This document shows positions 2,159-13,048 of a stretch of DNA of 14,699 bases, one piece after another. Origin of the DNA: a bacterium (lineage in GTDB: Bacteria > UBP15 > UBA6099 > JAJRTR01); assembly GCA_024278215.1 (NCBI GenBank), contig JAJRTR010000169.1:1-14699 (forward strand), read 5' to 3'. A program made the position numbers and the translations under genes. The notes under the pieces were generated by a model. The model did not search any database. It had not been told where the DNA came from and worked only from the letters and a program-made list of their open reading frames with translations. Positions within the stretch are counted from its first letter, which is position 1; the number at the start of each line of letters is the position of its first letter.

Positions 2159-5100
2159 ATGAAGACATTTTTTAAACTACCGAAAAAAGCGGAACAGAGG
2201 AACCCCATAATAGGCGTGATGATAGGTTTTGTTGTCGCGCTGTCGATAGGGTTGTGTTATCACGAGAAGGCCGCCGACATACCTGTTGCAGGTTGGGTAT
2301 TTAATTTCCTCAACAGCCTTGAGTACAAGACATATGATTTGAGATTCAGGATCAGGGGCGCTTTGCCGGAGCAGGCTATCAGCAAAGACATTGTACTGCT
2401 TGATTATGACGATGAGACAGAGGAGTGGGCGCCTTTTCCGCCTGACAGGACGTATTACGCTGAAATAATCAAAGCGCTCGCCGACGAAGACTCGCGAACA
2501 AAGGCAACATTTTTCGACATATTTTTCTTCGATCCGTTCGGCCAGCAGGTCAATGAGGAAATGGCGGAGGTCTTCTATAAAAAATTTACGGAACTTCCGT
2601 CGCAGATCGAGAAGGACTCCGAGGTCACAGGAAGATTCAAGCAGGACATGTACGATGTTTACGAGATACTGTCCGGCGATAAGCCGGGCGGAGTGTCGCT
2701 TGCCAGGAAGAAGTTACAGGAAATCATCGACGACAAAGAGATCAAGGAAATGATCTCGTATTTCAACAATACCGCCGCATTTTTTCAGGAGCAGTCCGAT
2801 ATGTCGGAACTTGCGCCCAACCGAGACATCGTCCTGAACGACGCTATCACAAAAGCTCGAAATGTTTATCTCGCGCAGATCGTCAACAACGCTGAAAAGA
2901 CTCCCATAAGCGTAGCAGACATTCTTTTCGATCCCCTGCTCCACAAGTCTTTCTCGAAACTGATAAAAATGCAGGACCGCACGAAGACTGAAAACAGGAA
3001 AGAAGTCGAGACCAATTATGCGCTGCGGAACATGACCGAGGCGGACTTCAGGTATCTGCTCGAGGAGAGTGACAAGCCGGACATCGACGGTCGGAAACCT
3101 CTGCCGTTCACTGACGAGGTCAAGTCGGCCATTGTCGCCGAGATGGCAAAAGTAAAAAAAGATGTGGACAATGCGATGGTGATAAACGACCATTTCGCCG
3201 TCTATATCACACCTCCCGATGTCGAGGACGTGCTCCAGAATCCGGTAATAAACGACCTGTTTAAAAAGCTCCTTATGATGAAAGACCGCACGAAGACCCG
3301 GCGCAGAACCGAAGTTCTTGTCAACTATGCTCTCAATACTTTTACACCTGCTGATTTCGATAAAATTCTCGAAAAGGGAAAGGTCGAGTGCAAAGCGCTG
3401 GGAAAACAAACTTGTGAGAACAACATGCGCGGCGACTGTCAGGAGACTGTTCTTGGGGAATGTGCGGACCCGACATCCGACGAGTGCAACAGGATGATCA
3501 AGGAAAAATGTGACGCGGCTGTTGACGAAGAGTGCGCGGATAAGACGACATCGGAATATCTTGATATCGCCCGGCAGGCCTGCGGTGTGCCTGCTGAAAA
3601 TGAGGGAGTTACAGATGGAGACTGCGGCGGCGAGTGCTATAATTCGTGCGCCTCGGATTGCAGCGCGGTATGCGAGAGCAAGAGTACGGAAATCTGTAAA
3701 GATATTGCCGAGAATAAACGTAAAGAATGTATAGAAACATATTCGCAGGAATGTGAAAGACCGTGCAACAGAAGATGCAAAATCGCTTTCACCTTCGACG
3801 AATATAACGCAGTGCAGGCCGAAAAAGATATGCTGGAGAAGGAAGGCGAAAGAAAAATATCGCCGGAGCTCGCCAGGGCCATCGACATAGGAAACGTAAT
3901 GCCTGTGCCGGCGGAAAAACTGCTTGACAAATACCGGAAACTGATAAATATGCAGTCGCCGGCAACTTTTATTGCAAAAGGTACTGCGGGTCCGGGATAT
4001 GTTAAACCTGAATTCCAGAAATACGATGGCACTATTCGTACTGCTGCGCCTGCTTCGGGGTTCAGGGGCAAACTCTTCCTTCACATCGACATGTTGCTCG
4101 CCATGCGCTATTTCGGTATCGGCCCCGACGACCTGATGTTCTATCCCAACAAGATCATCATGAACAATTGCCGCCGACCCGGCAGCGATGATACTTTTTC
4201 TGTCACGATTCCTCTGTACAGGCGTGGCACAGTCCTTGTCAACTGGGCCGGTACTTACTATGAACCGAATCAATATGATCACCGCAGTTTCAGGAAGATA
4301 TATGAGAATGCCGTTAAGTACAACATAATCAGAAAGACTGAGCGTGGCGAAGAGTTGACCACACTTGAAAAACAGAGAATGGCGGGAATCAAAAAAGAAG
4401 AAATTGCGAAGATAAAAAAAGAAATCGAGTTTTTTAAAGGAAAAATAAGCATGACGGGGCTTACCGCTGTCGGCACTCACGACCTCAACCCCGTTCCGTT
4501 CCATCCGAGATACCCCCTTGTCGGTATGCACGCTAATTTCGTCAATATGGTGATCACACAGAACTTCATCCACACCGCGCCGTTCATTCTGTTTATATTC
4601 GTCATTGTATTTCTGGGCGTTTTCGCAGGATATATAGGCGGTTCGAGGGAACAATTGTCCGGCGCTTTGATAACCGGTGGTTCGAGTCTTGGGTTCGCCG
4701 TTATTTCGATTCTGGTTTTCAACTATGCAAATATGTGGATGCCGGTCGTCCCGGTTTTTGTGGCTCTTATCGCCATATACCTGCTGGTTGTTCTATACCG
4801 GTTCATGACTGAAGGGCAGGAAGCGAAACGAATGAAGAGCATGTTCGGCACTTATGTTAATCCCGAGGTTGTTGATGTTCTTATCGAGAATCCTGAAATG
4901 CTGCAACTCGGCGGAAAGAGAATGGACCTCTCATGCACGTTCATCATGGCGTCCGGCCCCGGCCTCCAGACCGAGGACGCCGAGATTCTGGTCGACCGTC
5001 TCAACGAATTTTTTACCGAAATGACCGATGCGATTTTTGAGTATGACGGCACACTCGACAAGTACGAAGGACACATCATCATGGCGGTTTACGGGGCACC

Positions 5101-5704
5101 TGTCCATTATGACGACCATCCGCAAAAGATATGTATGTCGTGCGCCGCGATGAAAAAGAAGATGAGCGCTTTGCGCGTGAAATGGAAAGAAGAAGGCAAG
5201 GAAACGATTAACATAACAGCAGGGGTAAACACGGGACCGATGATCGCCGGAAACATGGGGTCCGCTTCGAGATTCAATTACACGATCATGGGTGACTCGG
5301 TCAACCTCTCCGCGCGTATCCTCGGTGCAAGCATACAGTACGGCATCGAGTTTATGATCAGCGAATATACTTATGAACGCGCCAGGGATGCTATTGTCGG
5401 CAGGCTCGTGGACGACATTGTTGTTGTCGGTAAGGAAGAGCCTGTAAAGGTCTATGAGATCATCGCTATGGCTGGCGAAGAGCTCGAGCCAGGAATGCGG
5501 GAATTCATCGACGCCTACGAAAACGGCTTCAATCTTTATACAGAACGAAAATGGGACGAAGCCGTTGCGTCGTTCGAGAAGGCGCTCGAACACAGAGACG
5601 ACAAACCGACAAAGATGCTTATAGAAAGGTGTGAAAAATATAAAGAGGAACCGCCGGAGGATGGTTGGAAGGGCGAGTTCGTGCTTACGTCGAAGGGACT
5701 GTAA
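2159..5704 (+). CDS. CHASE2 receptor adenylate cyclase subunit, C2-like (metal aspartates lost), with cysteine-ladder insert
   Basis: The 1181-residue protein has a membrane helix (about 16-34), a long extracytoplasmic CHASE2 sensor, three membrane helices (808-826, 835-856, 862-880), a class III cyclase domain (about 915-1100) and a TPR-like tail (about 1116-1150, YENGFNLYTERKWDEA). In the cyclase domain both metal-binding aspartates are replaced, the first by Ser932 (FIMASGPG for FSDI.GF) and the second by His972 (DKYEGH for DKYIGD). The purine-selecting pair Lys968/Thr1042 and the transition-state pair Asn1049/Arg1053 (GDSVNLSAR) are intact. Alone it should not cyclise ATP. Its residue set matches the C2 half of mammalian adenylyl cyclase and complements the protein encoded 143 bases downstream. 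The sensor holds a duplicated helical module (252-303, 355-406) and a cysteine-rich block (411-540), both beyond the usual CHASE2 layout; family members are commonly about 700-750 residues. The start has AAGGTGA (2144-2150) 8 bases upstream and an in-frame stop just before it. Family and architecture are certain; the pairing is inferred. Confidence 0.92.
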   Translation: MKTFFKLPKKAEQRNPIIGVMIGFVVALSIGLCYHEKAADIPVAGWVFNFLNSLEYKTYDLRFRIRGALPEQAISKDIVLLDYDDETEEWAPFPPDRTYYAEIIKALADEDSRTKATFFDIFFFDPFGQQVNEEMAEVFYKKFTELPSQIEKDSEVTGRFKQDMYDVYEILSGDKPGGVSLARKKLQEIIDDKEIKEMISYFNNTAAFFQEQSDMSELAPNRDIVLNDAITKARNVYLAQIVNNAEKTPISVADILFDPLLHKSFSKLIKMQDRTKTENRKEVETNYALRNMTEADFRYLLEESDKPDIDGRKPLPFTDEVKSAIVAEMAKVKKDVDNAMVINDHFAVYITPPDVEDVLQNPVINDLFKKLLMMKDRTKTRRRTEVLVNYALNTFTPADFDKILEKGKVECKALGKQTCENNMRGDCQETVLGECADPTSDECNRMIKEKCDAAVDEECADKTTSEYLDIARQACGVPAENEGVTDGDCGGECYNSCASDCSAVCESKSTEICKDIAENKRKECIETYSQECERPCNRRCKIAFTFDEYNAVQAEKDMLEKEGERKISPELARAIDIGNVMPVPAEKLLDKYRKLINMQSPATFIAKGTAGPGYVKPEFQKYDGTIRTAAPASGFRGKLFLHIDMLLAMRYFGIGPDDLMFYPNKIIMNNCRRPGSDDTFSVTIPLYRRGTVLVNWAGTYYEPNQYDHRSFRKIYENAVKYNIIRKTERGEELTTLEKQRMAGIKKEEIAKIKKEIEFFKGKISMTGLTAVGTHDLNPVPFHPRYPLVGMHANFVNMVITQNFIHTAPFILFIFVIVFLGVFAGYIGGSREQLSGALITGGSSLGFAVISILVFNYANMWMPVVPVFVALIAIYLLVVLYRFMTEGQEAKRMKSMFGTYVNPEVVDVLIENPEMLQLGGKRMDLSCTFIMASGPGLQTEDAEILVDRLNEFFTEMTDAIFEYDGTLDKYEGHIIMAVYGAPVHYDDHPQKICMSCAAMKKKMSALRVKWKEEGKETINITAGVNTGPMIAGNMGSASRFNYTIMGDSVNLSARILGASIQYGIEFMISEYTYERARDAIVGRLVDDIVVVGKEEPVKVYEIIAMAGEELEPGMREFIDAYENGFNLYTERKWDEAVASFEKALEHRDDKPTKMLIERCEKYKEEPPEDGWKGEFVLTSKGL
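2912..3067 (+). repeat. Sensor module repeat A (residues 252-303 of first cyclase)
   Basis: This is the first copy of a helical module in the extracytoplasmic sensor. It aligns with residues 355-406, 103 residues later: LIKMQDRTKT against LLMMKDRTKT, NYALRNMTEADF against NYALNTFTPADF. The DNA is still visibly similar (both contain gaccgcacgaagac). The partner cyclase has a single equivalent beginning at its own residue 252. Confidence 0.8.
3221..3376 (+). repeat. Sensor module repeat B (residues 355-406 of first cyclase)
   Basis: This second copy of the module ends directly before the cysteine-ladder insert. Because the partner protein has one copy, the duplication most likely arose in this gene after the two cyclases separated. 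Confidence 0.8.
3389..3778 (+). other. Cysteine-ladder insert (residues 411-540 of first cyclase)
   Basis: Eighteen cysteines occur in 130 residues. The first seven (411, 419, 427, 435, 443, 451, 459) are exactly eight apart, and the next is sixteen further on (475), with Tyr467 at the skipped position. Then come five spaced by four (489, 493, 497, 501, 505), then 513, 524, 532, 536 and 540. The block is also rich in Glu, Asp and Lys. Spacings of 4 and 8 place cysteines near one face of a helix. By topology this lies outside the cytoplasmic membrane, where disulfides can form. I do not recognise a named domain. Confidence 0.85.
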
Positions 5705-5847
5705 CCTGCATTGCATAATATGGAAATGTGTGATTTATATGGTAGTAGATAATAGTAGCTTACAGGTATATTAATAGCTATAAATGAAAAGATAAATAAT
5801 CTCATGATAAGTATTGACGGGCAAGTTGATTCTTTTGGAGGAAACAG

Positions 5848-8736
5848 ATGAAGTTACCGTTCAAACTTCCGCATAAAATCGAGGAACGCAACAGACTGGT
5901 AGGATTCATGATAGGTATGGGGATGGCTGTTGTCTTCAGCATTCTATACATTGCAGGCCCGCTGAAGGTTTTCACAGACTGGGACCTCGACGCAAAGTTC
6001 AATATTCGAAACAACTGGCTCAACAGCATTCACGATGCTGAAAAGAAGTTTGAAATATTACCTGTCAATGAAGACATGGTGTTCATCGAAATCGACGACT
6101 CGACCCTCGACTGGGAGGGCACTTTCCCGGACGATCCGGTTTATTATATCGACTTGATAGACAAGATGGGACGGGAGCAATTCAATGCGCTCGCAATGAT
6201 GTTCAGCATTGATTACTCTCACGAATTCGGGCGAAAAGTCGACCCGGACAACAGTATGTATTTTCAGGATGTTTTTGGGAAGATTGCATGGATGCTGGGC
6301 TACAATGCAAGCAAGAAAAGCGACATGGTCGACCAACTGAGTTATTTGCGTGAATTCCTTGACGACCCGGGCGCCGGCGCGTCGAAATCTGAAATCGCGG
6401 CGAGAATCGAAGAGCTCGTGTTCAGTGATACATTCCAGGAAATAGATTCCTACATGAACATGGTAAGTGCGTTTTCACAGCAGAATGCCGAGTTGAACGA
6501 ACTGGCGCCCGACAGAGAAAAGATGCTGGCGAATCACATGGAAGGTGCCGGAAATGTTTTTTTTATGTATAAGTCGGAAAATATGGCCGTTGTCCCTTAC
6601 GATGTCGATGACCTGAGAAACAACGCCGGCATCAGGGAGATGCTTCTGAATGTGCTCAGACGCCCAACCCTCAACAGACCGGAAAATGAAAAACTCGCGC
6701 AGGTTTATGAGGCATATTTCAACCTTCTGCCGGACGAACTCAAGTTGCTGATAGAAGAAAAAAACAATCCTTTCCCGAAAGATGTAATTGAAAGATTGAA
6801 AAGTGATTACAAGAAAAGGCAGGCTGAACTCGAAGAGTTCCGGCTGCAAAACAAATATGTCGAGGTAGATATTCCACCGGGGGTCGAAGATAATTATCTG
6901 CACCTCCGAAAAGCTGTGCCTGTTAATCCCACAATAGGAAGAAAAACAGTAGGGCAGGGCATGTTTAAAGCTGAGATTTCATCAGACGGAAAACTCCGCA
7001 GAATAGCGCCGGTGGCGATATATGCAGGTAAGATGTATCCACATGTCGACTTCCTGCTGGCCCTTCAGTATCTCAATGTTCCTCTCTCGAATATAACATT
7101 TGAAAAACGACGGATCATTCTCAAAGATGCCGTTAATCCTCGCACCGGCGAAAAGAAGGACATCGTGATCCCACTGCTCGAGGACGGCACCATGATTGTA
7201 AACTGGGCCGGGCTCTGGGCCGACACCTCGATCCCTTTCGGACATAAAAGCCTGAAAAATATATATATGAATATCGGCAGACTCAACAACTACAAAGCTC
7301 ACCAGGACATATTGAGTTTGCCGAAAGAAGAAAGAGAAGCAAAACTCGCCGAGCTGCCCGCAGAAGTTATCGAGCTAAGGGAATCCATCACCGCCGATGA
7401 GGCTCAGACAAGGAAAGCGGAACTCGAGAACCTGACCGGTAAGATATTGATAGTCGGCCGCACCGCTGTCGGCACTGAAGACCTGAACCCGACACCGCTC
7501 GAACCCAGGTATCCGCTGCTCGGTCTTCACGCGAACGTCATAAACACTATTGTCCAGGACATATTCATAAAATATGTAAAGTGGTATGTAGTGATTGTTA
7601 TTTTCTTTGTTTTGTCTCTGTCGGTCGGCATGGTCGGTGGCGTTGTGCAGAATAAATCGACCGTCGTCACAGGTCTCATCAACTTCCTTTTCATGGGATT
7701 TGTGATCTCTGTTTACGGTGCGTTTGCCTTCTACATGTTTGTTTTTCGTTATACGAGCCTGCCTATTCTCGCGGCTGTTCTGCTGGTCGTGCTAACCTTT
7801 CTCCTTGTCTTCATATACAGGTTTGTGACCGAAGAGCAGGAGAAGAAAAAGATGAAAAACATGTTCGGCACTTATGTCAACAAGGAAGTTGTCGAATCTC
7901 TTATCGAAGACCCGGACAAATTGAAACTCGGCGGCGAGTGGATGGAATGTACAGTGTTTTTCTCCGACGTAGCGGGTTTCACGTCGATATCCGAAAGCAT
8001 GCCGCCTGAAGACCTTGACGAACTTCTTAACGAATACCTCACGGCAATGACCGACATAATTTTCGAATATGGCGGAACGCTTGACAAGTATATCGGCGAT
8101 GCCGTAGTCGCAATATTCGGCGCTCCGATACCGTTCCCCGAGAACGATCACGCCATCCGCGCATGTCTTGCCACAATCGACATGCAGGAAAAACTCGAGC
8201 AAATGCGCCAGGTCTGGCGCGAACAGGGCAAAACGGAACTTACCGCGCGCTGCGGCGTCAACACAGGTATGATGATCGCCGGGAACATGGGGTCGGTAAA
8301 GCGTTTCAATTACACCGTTGTCGGCGAGAATGTCGAATATGGCGAACACCTCGAGAGCGGCGGCAAGAAATGGGGCACGGTGATGACCATAAGCGAACCC
8401 ACTTACAATTATGCGAAAGATGTCATTCATACGCGGTTGCTTGATGTCGACTGGCTCGAGAGCAAACCTGTTCGCATCCTTGAAATAATGGGTAGAAAAG
8501 AAGAACCCCTTGCCGACAATATTAAAAAGGGAATTGCGGTATATGAAGAAGGTGTTCAACTTTATTTCGCTCGTGAATTCGACAAAGCAATAGCAAAATT
8601 CAAAGAAGTTTTTGAACATATCCCTGAAGACCTGCCTTCCCAAAGAGCTATAGGCAGATGCGAAGACGCAAAAGAGAATCCCCCTGATGAAGAATTCGAC
8701 AAACGCGCCGCACACATCGGCGCAATTAAGGTCTGA
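5848..8736 (+). CDS. CHASE2 receptor adenylate cyclase subunit, C1-like (metal aspartates kept, transition-state residues lost)
   Basis: The 962-residue paralogue of the preceding gene has the same plan: membrane helix (17-36), CHASE2 sensor, three membrane helices (about 580-599, 610-633, 638-657), class III cyclase (about 695-875) and TPR-like tail (about 892-945). Shared signatures include FKLP.K.E.RN at the N-terminus, TAVGT.DLNP.P..PRYPL.G.HAN before the membrane block, and MFGTYVN.EVV..LIE before the catalytic domain. The metal site is complete (Asp707 in FFSDVAGFT, Asp751 in DKYIGDAV). Lys747 and Thr823 are kept. The normal GD.VN...R segment instead reads GENVEYGEHLESGGKK, placing Glu830 and His834 where the transition-state Asn and Arg belong. 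A homodimer should therefore be inactive or nearly so. The residue set equals the C1 half of mammalian adenylyl cyclase, which also has His at the Arg position. GGAGG (5837-5841) sits 6 bases before the ATG. No terminator separates it from the first cyclase gene, so I infer co-transcription and an obligate heterodimer. Confidence 0.92.
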   Translation: MKLPFKLPHKIEERNRLVGFMIGMGMAVVFSILYIAGPLKVFTDWDLDAKFNIRNNWLNSIHDAEKKFEILPVNEDMVFIEIDDSTLDWEGTFPDDPVYYIDLIDKMGREQFNALAMMFSIDYSHEFGRKVDPDNSMYFQDVFGKIAWMLGYNASKKSDMVDQLSYLREFLDDPGAGASKSEIAARIEELVFSDTFQEIDSYMNMVSAFSQQNAELNELAPDREKMLANHMEGAGNVFFMYKSENMAVVPYDVDDLRNNAGIREMLLNVLRRPTLNRPENEKLAQVYEAYFNLLPDELKLLIEEKNNPFPKDVIERLKSDYKKRQAELEEFRLQNKYVEVDIPPGVEDNYLHLRKAVPVNPTIGRKTVGQGMFKAEISSDGKLRRIAPVAIYAGKMYPHVDFLLALQYLNVPLSNITFEKRRIILKDAVNPRTGEKKDIVIPLLEDGTMIVNWAGLWADTSIPFGHKSLKNIYMNIGRLNNYKAHQDILSLPKEEREAKLAELPAEVIELRESITADEAQTRKAELENLTGKILIVGRTAVGTEDLNPTPLEPRYPLLGLHANVINTIVQDIFIKYVKWYVVIVIFFVLSLSVGMVGGVVQNKSTVVTGLINFLFMGFVISVYGAFAFYMFVFRYTSLPILAAVLLVVLTFLLVFIYRFVTEEQEKKKMKNMFGTYVNKEVVESLIEDPDKLKLGGEWMECTVFFSDVAGFTSISESMPPEDLDELLNEYLTAMTDIIFEYGGTLDKYIGDAVVAIFGAPIPFPENDHAIRACLATIDMQEKLEQMRQVWREQGKTELTARCGVNTGMMIAGNMGSVKRFNYTVVGENVEYGEHLESGGKKWGTVMTISEPTYNYAKDVIHTRLLDVDWLESKPVRILEIMGRKEEPLADNIKKGIAVYEEGVQLYFAREFDKAIAKFKEVFEHIPEDLPSQRAIGRCEDAKENPPDEEFDKRAAHIGAIKV

Positions 8737-9006: not shown

Positions 9007-9085
9007 GAAGATAGCGATGGCTTTGTTGAAAAGTGATTTTTGTTACCTTAGAATTAACACAAAAGCAATTGAAGACAGCATCGTG

Positions 9086-12000
9086 ATGAGAACAAAACAT
9101 AATAGAGTGTTCAGTACAGTCGCCGCCAGGGCGCTTGCCGCATTTATTATCGTATCGGTCTGCTTTGCGTTGATCCTGTATGTTTCAGGATGTGCAGGGT
9201 TCGAGTCATGGAAAAGCGAAAGGCTGAGCGAGTTGTATCGGTCTGATGAGGCAGGTGATAAGAGCGGGGTTGTGTTTACGCTCGTCGGCGAGCATTCGGT
9301 AATCGGAGTCGGAGCGAATACTGTCCGCGAGGATCGCGAAAAGTGGAAAGCGACATTCAGCATGAGTTCGCTGGAGATGCAGCGCGGGGCCGATTTTCAC
9401 CTTGACGCGAAAGTGAAGATAGTTGATAAGGAGATACTGAGACTGATCGAGAAGTCCGGGTCGGATGAATTATATATGCTGGCGGTGATCGCGCCGATCT
9501 ACAACAGGGAAGGACATTTCAGGCAATTTACCAATATTCAGATGTCGTGTATGCTCACGCCGACCGGCATGCCGATTGAAACATTGCAGGAAAACCTGCC
9601 TGCGAAATTTAAAAGCAATCATTACCGTACACCGTGGGAGATGGTGGACACAAGGACGCCGGCTGAAGCGATTGATGGTGATGTGATCAGATTTTCCATA
9701 GACTCGCGTGTACCCGGCGACATCGATGACGGCCACTATCGAATAGCGATCGAGATGGGCGCGAGAATCGACGGTCGTTTGATCAAGCTTGAACTCATTC
9801 CGTATCTCGGCTCGATTCTGCTTGACGAGGAGAAGAGCAGGGATGTTTTTCTTACCGCGAATGCCACTGAAAGAAGCAGGATCAACATAAATTATTCGCC
9901 TGTGTTCACCGTCGGCGCTCCCGCGCCTCCGAGGATGCCCTGGACGCTGCTCGGGACGGTCGACACGCACGGCACAAGGGGCATTGTCGCCCGCGAGGAC
10001 AAAGCTTATTTCGCCATCAGCTATTCCGGCCTGCGCCAGGATAAGATGATTATCCCGATGAACAACCGCTACGGCGCTCCGATCACATATCGACTCGAAC
10101 CCGATTTCCCAACGCAGAATAAGGAACAGGAATCATTTGAAAAAACATATTATTACAAAGGGCCTACCGTTCTTTCTCACATTCAGCTTTCACCGGTGGA
10201 ACTCGATTATTCGTCAGGTGAAATGAGTGTGGTGGTCCACACGCCGTCGGGCGGAACAGATGATCTGGGCCGCGCTCCGTTCATCGGAAACACAAAAACG
10301 GGAGCGACGACCGGTGGGAATTATTTCGATTACCGTTTCAGCGAATACGGCCATTATGTGATCGAGATGAAAGGCTACATAAATGATGTGTTTGGAAGGA
10401 CATATTTCGGCGGCGGCACTTATGACGTCTGGGTCGCGCTTCCGCTCAGCATGAGCACAAGCTGCAAGCCGGGTATGCCCTACTCGGTGGGCATGAGCTA
10501 TTCGCCGAGAGTGACTGTGCATCCGGGTGTGCCCGCGGACATGAGTTACGAAGTGAAGCTGTACAGGAACTCGTCGAAAGAAGACGTGAAAGTGTGGAAG
10601 CACACAGGCCGCGCGAATAATTACGGCTACTACTTTCCGCGTGAAAATTTCGAGCCGATGGTTTTCGACGCGCCGGGCGAATACCGTGCGGAAGTTACCG
10701 CGACCTATTGGGACAAAGACGGCAGGCTCTGGATGGGCGGCCAGACCAGCGCGAGCGTAGTCGCCACGCGCGACAGCGACGTGACGGTGCACGGCGATAT
10801 CATGTTCTTCCAGTCGCGGCCCTTCGATGTTAATGTGCCGCTGGATTTCAGGCCGAGGTTCGAGCTCAGGGCGAGCGGACTTGCAGGCACACAGGAAATC
10901 AACGACATGACGATGACCCAGATCAGAATGGGAATGCCGTACAACAGCAACGACGTCCTGTTTTTCTCACCGGCGCTGTTGTGGAACGTCGGCGAAATGT
11001 ATCCTCTATTATCTTTTTCCACAACCGACAGGTCCGTCACAGGCGAGGTGCTGAATAACTTTCCGCCGCTCGATAGGTTTCTCAATGAACATTTCGGTGA
11101 AACGATCGACGACTTGAATGATTGCTGGGGAAAGGTCTATGCGGTCGACACCTGCGATTCCATGCTGCTCGATATGGTCGAGACTTCGCTGCACAAGGCC
11201 GCCGACAATCTCACTGTGATGTCCATGGGCGCGAACAGGTACCAGCCCCATGCCTTCCAGGAAGACCAGGAGATCGTCAGTTACTATTATTCATCTTCGA
11301 TCAAGCCCGGCCTGCTGAGCCGGAATGTTGTCTCCGATTCCACCAACTCGACATCCTACTGGATAATTACGCCGAACTTTTTCGGGCACCAGTTCGGCTC
11401 GGGCGAAAACGGCGATGTGCGTGGAGATTTGTATCACCTGATGGGCGGGGTTGTATACAGGAACTTGAAGACCGGCGTGAATAAATACGGCATATATCAT
11501 TCATCGGCGCTGGTGGCAGACGGCAGGGACGAGAACAACAGGGTAGAAGCGCCCCTGAAATCGCCGCTGGTGACGGTGGGCGGGCGTGATTACTACATGT
11601 TTCCGGGCATGTCGCCGGAGCAGGGCGCTATCTACGAGACGGGAGATAAGATAGTCAGCGGCGGATTCCTCTTCCCTTCAATCTCCGCCGATTATGAGTT
11701 CAGGCTCGTGCCGCCTTCCGGCAAACCTCTGATATACAAAGGTAAATCGAACGACTTCGGATTATTCAAGCCGATGCCCGGCTACATCGCGCGGGAACCG
11801 GGACTGTACAGGGTATACATGAAATTCTTTGCCGGGGGCAGGGAGGGCGCGACGCTCGGCAAACCCGACGGCTGGTACCACCTCTATGTTGTGGAAGAAA
11901 ACTCGCCATACAAGATCACATTCGACATGCCGCTGGTCTCCGAGTTCGACCCGAAAGATGTACTCGAATTGCATGGGAGTCTGCCCGAGGGCTGGAAAGA

Positions 12001-13048
12001 CGGGAAACTGTATTACACGGTAGTCAGCCCCGGCGTCGTCTATTCCGACGGCGAGTTGCCGATAGAAGACGGCAGGTTCACATACAGGTATGCGCCGCTT
12101 CACGCGAATGTCTATTACAAGAGCCTGGAACTGTTCGACAAAGTGAATAACAGGCCGGATTTCTGGGACACGGTAGTCTTTTCGTTTTTTGTAGACGGTG
12201 TATCGCGAGACGGAAAAAGAATCACTGCCGCCGCCGAAATACTTGCGCGCGGAAACAAAGTATATTACTTTGAAGGCGAATGGCCCAAGGGACCGCCGCC
12301 GAAACTTCGCGCGAAAAAAATGTACGGTCGCTTTTCAATCGACAGATCGGCATTCCCTTACTCGAAAGACGACATAAAAGTACCCGGCGATACCGGTAAC
12401 CTTATTAAAAAGAAATGCGGCTCGTGCCATGCGTTGCCGTCTGCCGGGCGCACATTCAGCGCGTGGAGCGGAATCGTCAACTGGCATATCGAGAAGAATT
12501 GGCTATGGCTGCGTCCCGCGAATCGCAGGGCAATAGTCGATGCGCTCTACGAAAAGTTTCCGCCGTCGACGTCCGATGATGCAGCCATGCGCGAAAAAAT
12601 GCTTATGCAAAAAGGCGATAAGCTATTTAAAAAACGGTGCCTGTCGTGTCACCCGTCCGAACCTGCAAGGGACAGACCCAGGTCACGGCTCGGCTGGAAA
12701 AATATAATCGAGAGACACGAATACTGGGGCGAAAAAATGCGCGGCGACCCGATGTACGCGAATGATGAAGAAAAGAAAACACTCTTTGAATATCTTCACC
12801 TTGTTTCAGGTTCGGAACCGGAGTTGCCGGCCGGTGATCCTCGTTCGCCAAAAAAGAAATTTCAGAAATTGTGCTTCGACTGCCATGCGACAACTCTCGA
12901 AACATACAACTGGAGTAAGGCCGACAGGCGTTTCCTCGACATGCACATAAAGAATAAATTCGATGCCGGCAAGCAACATGACGCAGAGGCTGTTCTCAAG
13001 TATCTTCTGGGCGATGATAACAGGAAAAAGAGCGGGAACGAAGAATAG
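9086..13048 (+). CDS. Large secreted lipoprotein with Ig-like beta modules and a C-terminal tri-haem cytochrome c region
   Basis: From the ATG at 9086 the product is 1320 residues. An upstream ATG at 9017 is in frame, but 9086 gives a proper lipoprotein signal: a basic start (MRTKHNR), a hydrophobic core and lipobox VSGC with Cys36. Ala follows the cysteine, with no Asp retention signal, which fits the outer membrane. Residues about 40-1090 are beta-rich with recurring Ig-like endings (GHYVIEMKG near 422, PGEYRAEVT near 531, PGLYRVYMK near 906, each followed by a GR or GG turn). The C-terminus has three haem-binding motifs 74 and 78 residues apart: CGSCH 1111-1115, CLSCH 1185-1189 and CFDCH 1263-1267. 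Each is followed 19-22 residues later by a histidine (1134, 1211, 1287) where monohaem relatives often carry the methionine ligand, suggesting bis-histidine, low-potential haems. It probably moves electrons at the cell surface or periplasm. I do not recognise the whole protein as a named family, and the partner is unknown. It follows the cyclase pair on the same strand but is separated from it by 349 bases. Confidence 0.85.
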   Translation: MRTKHNRVFSTVAARALAAFIIVSVCFALILYVSGCAGFESWKSERLSELYRSDEAGDKSGVVFTLVGEHSVIGVGANTVREDREKWKATFSMSSLEMQRGADFHLDAKVKIVDKEILRLIEKSGSDELYMLAVIAPIYNREGHFRQFTNIQMSCMLTPTGMPIETLQENLPAKFKSNHYRTPWEMVDTRTPAEAIDGDVIRFSIDSRVPGDIDDGHYRIAIEMGARIDGRLIKLELIPYLGSILLDEEKSRDVFLTANATERSRININYSPVFTVGAPAPPRMPWTLLGTVDTHGTRGIVAREDKAYFAISYSGLRQDKMIIPMNNRYGAPITYRLEPDFPTQNKEQESFEKTYYYKGPTVLSHIQLSPVELDYSSGEMSVVVHTPSGGTDDLGRAPFIGNTKTGATTGGNYFDYRFSEYGHYVIEMKGYINDVFGRTYFGGGTYDVWVALPLSMSTSCKPGMPYSVGMSYSPRVTVHPGVPADMSYEVKLYRNSSKEDVKVWKHTGRANNYGYYFPRENFEPMVFDAPGEYRAEVTATYWDKDGRLWMGGQTSASVVATRDSDVTVHGDIMFFQSRPFDVNVPLDFRPRFELRASGLAGTQEINDMTMTQIRMGMPYNSNDVLFFSPALLWNVGEMYPLLSFSTTDRSVTGEVLNNFPPLDRFLNEHFGETIDDLNDCWGKVYAVDTCDSMLLDMVETSLHKAADNLTVMSMGANRYQPHAFQEDQEIVSYYYSSSIKPGLLSRNVVSDSTNSTSYWIITPNFFGHQFGSGENGDVRGDLYHLMGGVVYRNLKTGVNKYGIYHSSALVADGRDENNRVEAPLKSPLVTVGGRDYYMFPGMSPEQGAIYETGDKIVSGGFLFPSISADYEFRLVPPSGKPLIYKGKSNDFGLFKPMPGYIAREPGLYRVYMKFFAGGREGATLGKPDGWYHLYVVEENSPYKITFDMPLVSEFDPKDVLELHGSLPEGWKDGKLYYTVVSPGVVYSDGELPIEDGRFTYRYAPLHANVYYKSLELFDKVNNRPDFWDTVVFSFFVDGVSRDGKRITAAAEILARGNKVYYFEGEWPKGPPPKLRAKKMYGRFSIDRSAFPYSKDDIKVPGDTGNLIKKKCGSCHALPSAGRTFSAWSGIVNWHIEKNWLWLRPANRRAIVDALYEKFPPSTSDDAAMREKMLMQKGDKLFKKRCLSCHPSEPARDRPRSRLGWKNIIERHEYWGEKMRGDPMYANDEEKKTLFEYLHLVSGSEPELPAGDPRSPKKKFQKLCFDCHATTLETYNWSKADRRFLDMHIKNKFDAGKQHDAEAVLKYLLGDDNRKKSGNEE

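Follow-up and report, generated by a model that had tools for sequence, protein, structure and literature searches.

Two adjacent CHASE2 receptor genes in the window, that is, the whole stretch of 14,699 bases analysed here within a 4.55 Mb draft genome, very probably encode, as far as their residues can tell, the two chains of a membrane-bound class III adenylate cyclase that works only as a heterodimer and forms cAMP at a single active site. Moreover, class III cyclases split over two genes and working as heterodimers are likely to be a recurrent bacterial invention, in which tandem duplication of a CHASE2 receptor gene is followed by the same complementary loss, two sensors gate one site, and the retained pseudo-site may be allosteric. 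The split heterodimer is already known from eukaryotes, and its recurrence in bacteria is the main novelty. Bacterial class III adenylate cyclases have been described as homodimers and the split (pseudo)heterodimer as eukaryotic (PMC4821796, PMC9552081), a difference that one of these two papers treats as fundamental. Searches of an open-access library turned up no bacterial split cyclase pair, subscription journals lying mostly outside its scope.

The features of the pair are collected in Table 1. Two open reading frames, each joining CHASE2 to a class III cyclase, had been proposed in the first-pass annotation, and both their coordinates and their Pfam matches, all above the cut-offs, bear this out: E-values for CHASE2 (PF05226) were 1.5e-24 and 2e-19, and those for the cyclase domain (PF00211) were 1.8e-11 and 4.2e-18, for proteins 1 and 2 respectively. 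Transmembrane-like segments were present in both proteins, so that CHASE2, transmembrane helices and cyclase together give the layout of a CHASE2 receptor cyclase. Structure prediction gives both cyclase domains an intact class III fold. AlphaFold2 monomer models, each from a 14-row alignment, reached a pLDDT of 85.4 and a pTM of 0.82 for the domain of protein 1, and 85.3 and 0.83 for that of protein 2; VIA-align superposed them on CyaB (3r5g) with Z = 25.4 and 26.6. In PDB sequence searches, protein 1 matched human soluble guanylyl cyclase beta and not alpha, as well as the second cyclase domain of AC8. Protein 2 matched AC5 C1 (1cjk_A), and soluble guanylyl cyclase alpha better than beta; a 40-residue segment of it gave no alignment to mammalian C1 in phmmer.

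Table 1. Coordinates of the cyclase gene pair and its active-site positions in the window.
Feature	Position	Strand	Basis or remark
Protein 1, C2-like half, 1181 aa: TM, CHASE2, TM bundle, metal-less cyclase domain, TPR-like tail	2159..5704	+	
Protein 1 cyclase homology domain; K968, T1042, N1049, R1053 kept	4799..5509	+	Alignments, AlphaFold2, VIA-align
Met930: first metal Asp position, lost	4946..4948	+	Profile alignment, codon position; most likely register
His972: second metal Asp position, lost	5072..5074	+	Alignment
Asn1049 to Arg1053: transition-state residues, kept	5303..5317	+	Alignment
Intergenic gap, 143 bases	5705..5847	+	
Protein 2, C1-like half, 962 aa: TM, CHASE2, TM bundle, cyclase with both Asp and without Asn/Arg, TPR-like tail	5848..8736	+	
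Protein 2 cyclase homology domain	7819..8535	+	Alignment, AlphaFold2, VIA-align
Asp707: first metal Asp, kept	7966..7968	+	Alignment
Asp751: second metal Asp, kept	8098..8100	+	Alignment
Glu830 (Asn lost), Glu833, His834 (Arg lost)	8335..8349	+	Alignment; Glu833 matches a Glu also in C1-like halves of other lineages

No terminator-like site was found on the + strand between the two genes, and the corresponding gap measures 36-44 bases in four relatives. An Rfam search of the window gave no match, and a search of the source genome for 16S found none. Ten matches to the cyclic-nucleotide-binding family PF00027 occur in the source genome, which makes cyclic-nucleotide effectors plausible. Protein 1 also carries a Cys-rich insert (residues 411-540, window 3389-3778) with 18 Cys, seven of them spaced exactly 8 residues apart from 411 to 459. 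It sits in the presumed extracytoplasmic CHASE2 region, is missing from the three other homologues counted, and is possibly disulfide-rich or metal-binding. Downstream of the pair, at 9017-13048 (+), lies a gene for a 1343-aa protein with C-terminal c-type haem motifs (Cytochrome_CBB3 and related matches), which is not conserved beside the cyclase pair in relatives.

Alignment with canonical cyclases demonstrates that the losses of the two chains are complementary. Protein 1 has lost both metal-binding Asp and keeps the four residues listed for its domain; protein 2 keeps Asp707, Asp751, Lys747 and Thr823, with Glu830 replacing Asn and His834 replacing Arg. The full set of two Asp, the purine-selecting pair, Asn and Arg is reached only by combining both chains. 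The assignments made earlier for Lys968, His972, Thr1042, Asn1049 and Arg1053 in protein 1, and for Asp707, Asp751, Glu830 and His834 in protein 2, all fall in canonical positions. Ser932, which had been named as the replacement of the first metal Asp in protein 1, is a different case. The loss itself is real, there being no Asp in any alignment register, but the canonical-cyclase profile favours Met930 over Ser932 as, most likely, the residue at this site; Leu is found in G002 and a gap in G005, and the following loop is shortened. The parallel drawn with the Asp-to-Ser change of mammalian C2 thus falls away for protein 1; it is G035, G023, G170 and G420 whose C2-like halves have Ser at the first metal site.

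In class III cyclases the two chains of a dimer build the active site at their interface, one binding the metals and the other contributing the residues for the purine and the transition state. Since the natural pair shows this interface-site division of residues, a heterodimer of proteins 1 and 2 should have one active site. In such a dimer, protein 2 would supply the two metal-binding Asp as the C1-like half, and protein 1 would supply the purine-selecting Lys968 and Thr1042 together with the transition-state Asn1049 and Arg1053 as the C2-like half; the Lys/Thr pair points to ATP as the predicted substrate. With one complete site only in the mixed dimer, two different CHASE2 sensors would jointly gate one cAMP-making centre, and control of a single catalytic centre by two different sensors is probably the advantage of the split. 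The second interface site, without metal ligands, Asn and Arg, would be catalytically dead; with Lys747 and Thr823, it may bind nucleotide as an allosteric site. Dimeric catalytic centres have been stated for class III cyclases (PMC9552081), and in Rv1625c the D300A and R376A mutants are each inactive alone and regain activity on co-expression (PMC4821796), which supports the split reading, since the same division of losses was made there artificially. The retention of Lys and Thr in both halves counts against it, as strict economy would allow protein 2 to lose them.

Within UBP15, seven genomes from four genera were compared, and both genes are present in all of them, adjacent, on the same strand and with protein 1 first. 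The complementary losses are likewise found in 7/7 genomes, and this recurrence throughout the phylum sample makes the pattern more than chance. In the homologues of protein 1, the second metal site is occupied by H, H, S, A, A, A and A and the first is never Asp, with K, T, N and R retained in every case. The homologues of protein 2 all keep both Asp and have His for Arg, the Asn position reading E, E, E, D, D, D and D; the Lys/Thr pair corresponding to Lys747/Thr823 is retained in all seven. The genes that flank the window's pair do not recur next to it in the other genomes and genera. Comparison of four close species gave dN/dS values of 0.06-0.10 (whole protein) and 0.00-0.03 (cyclase domain, where changes are few) in protein 1; the corresponding values in protein 2 are 0.04-0.07 and 0.02-0.05. 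The metal-less domain is thus under strong purifying selection, being maintained and not decaying. Activity is known for some class III cyclases whose residues are non-canonical, and protein 2 alone may be active as well. It might then form a working homodimer, through Glu830 and His834 or by tolerating the loss of Asn and Arg, given that both metal Asp, Lys and Thr are retained, with protein 1 serving as a modulating regulatory pseudo-cyclase. We consider this very improbable, because a pure regulator needs neither Asn nor Arg, and yet protein 1 retains both in 7/7 genomes, as do the metal-less halves of all other lineages, and dN/dS of its domain stays at or below 0.03. A scan of genome contigs with the family alignment recovered six named UBP15 records (ADurb.Bin236, UBP15_UBA6099, USMO_maxbin.112, USCA_metabat.19, DeMMO6_30 and RA.bin91), and these MAGs are the closest named relatives of the source genome; the same scan with protein 1 alone as the query found no relative.

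The split is not confined to UBP15. DNA patterns for the UBP15-type losses, run over 386 genomes, had matched only UBP15 cyclases and three non-cyclase chance matches, and uniqueness to the phylum was considered on that basis. This reading was dropped, since the adjacency test revealed pairs with different substitutions at these positions, which patterns so narrow could not catch. Other loci at which two cyclase hits neighbour each other were taken as controls, position in the hit list being the sole basis of choice. Three of them, in G035, G074 and G023, proved to hold CHASE2-like receptor cyclases that form complementary pairs (G035 and G023 were read as full sequences), and their relatives G182, G317, G420, G170, G409 and G215 also carry such pairs. 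Once the rule had been formed, a further search for neighbouring cyclases brought up one new pair, in G138; it was predicted to be split and was confirmed to be so, and the 19 unpaired relatives fetched alongside it were all canonical. Altogether, complementary pairs account for 17/17 adjacent CHASE2-cyclase pairs (seven UBP15 and ten other genomes) versus 0/50 unpaired relatives from other genomes (23 + 8 + 19), which are canonical at all six positions. The C2-like halves of all pairs keep K, T, N and R and have lost at least one metal Asp, the loss in G409 being limited to the first; the C1-like halves keep both Asp and have lost N and R together. It had been asked whether the two forms always occur as neighbours and whether their losses are matched rather than random: no genome with one form only is seen among the 17, and the losses match in every pair. 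The split C1/C2-type reading of the window is thus supported, although it was too narrow, complementary pairs being found in several lineages. That both proteins are catalytically dead and serve as CHASE2 sensors or scaffolds is extremely improbable. Neither chain alone holds a complete catalytic set, as such a reading would have it, but in every genome the two chains together still hold all six residues, the catalytic domains are under strong purifying selection, and random decay would not leave one complete set in 17/17 pairs. Outside this count stands the adjacent pair G030:C13 (L103), which is degenerate and not complementary: one partner has substitutions at its first Asp, Lys, Asn and Arg, the other only Lys to Glu. 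It counts against the split reading. Two more distant genes at G034:C70 are both canonical.

The origin of the split was traced in a tree of 59 sequences, computed with the catalytic columns removed and without mammalian cyclases. C1-like and C2-like halves form sister clades in three separate places of this tree, and these sisters lie inside the bacterial CHASE2 cyclases. Support was 100/97 for the UBP15 clades, whose genomes match between the two halves as had been predicted; 100/98 for G035, G182, G317 and G074, which are sister to canonical single-gene cyclases; and 95/82 for G023, G170 and G409, which are nested among canonical cyclases. Forcing all C2-like halves into one clade was rejected (p-AU 1.3e-62). 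The C1/C2 sisters in each lineage, together with this rejection, suggest at least three independent origins of the split by tandem duplication and complementary loss, a history that gene conversion between neighbours could mimic. In UBP15, an ancestral canonical homodimeric CHASE2 cyclase would have been duplicated in tandem, with complementary loss following. An ancient split with a single origin common to all lineages would account for the C2-like gene coming first in every CHASE2 pair and for the resemblance of the substitutions, for example His in place of Asp and, throughout the C1-like halves of the three lineages, the Glu that precedes the lost Arg. It is nevertheless very improbable, since it conflicts both with the sister clades in each lineage and with the rejected single C2-like clade, and the starred branches of the tree force at least three changes.

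Among the closest known systems, mammalian transmembrane adenylyl cyclases (C1/C2; 1CJK) likewise have the metal ligands in one half and the purine and transition-state residues in the second, and mammalian C1 has His in place of Arg, as the C1-like half does here. They differ in being one fused chain rather than two bacterial genes with CHASE2 sensors, in having Ser instead of Met at the first metal position, and in that Lys/Thr occurs here in both halves. Soluble guanylyl cyclase alpha/beta is also a two-gene heterodimer with a split site, protein 2 resembling alpha and protein 1 beta; however, it is a soluble NO-haem receptor making cGMP, whereas membrane CHASE2 receptors are found here and Lys/Thr would predict ATP. 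Sinorhizobium CyaD1, CyaD2 and CyaK likewise combine a CHASE2 sensor with a class III cyclase domain, and the term heterodimer is absent from the paper describing them (PMC13001267); unlike the pairs, the unpaired bacterial CHASE2 cyclases in this analysis are canonical at each of the six positions and are expected to be homodimers. The chytrid RGC/NeoR proteins are an obligate heterodimer of two receptor cyclases, but they are fungal, and RGC1 and RGC2 retain all cyclization-relevant residues (PMC8815786), so the reason why they must pair is probably to be sought elsewhere than in the active site. If recurrence in bacteria is true, the eukaryotic C1/C2 design becomes one of several parallel outcomes, and independent origins would make C1/C2 evolution testable by replicate natural experiments. 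The pairs would then offer simple two-gene systems for studying why a homodimer becomes asymmetric. They would also suggest that some cyclases annotated as degenerate are obligate partners, and they provide an annotation rule by which adjacent CHASE2 cyclases are read as complementary halves.

Further UBP15 cyclases were observed in the clusters L105 (G005:C1), L107 (G001:C95) and L108 (G001:C161). Their partners have either Glu at the first metal site with Asn and Arg kept, or both Asp with Asn and Arg altered, and these clusters are possibly a second kind of split pair. For G005:C1 and G001:C95, where one partner has Glu at the first metal site and the other lacks Asn/Arg, sister support was 95/79, and this set is a possible fourth origin of the split. 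In addition, a single UBP15 cyclase outside any CHASE2 pair, L092 (G005:C445:8535), has Arg changed to His with Asn kept (YTVIGDNVNLASHIE).
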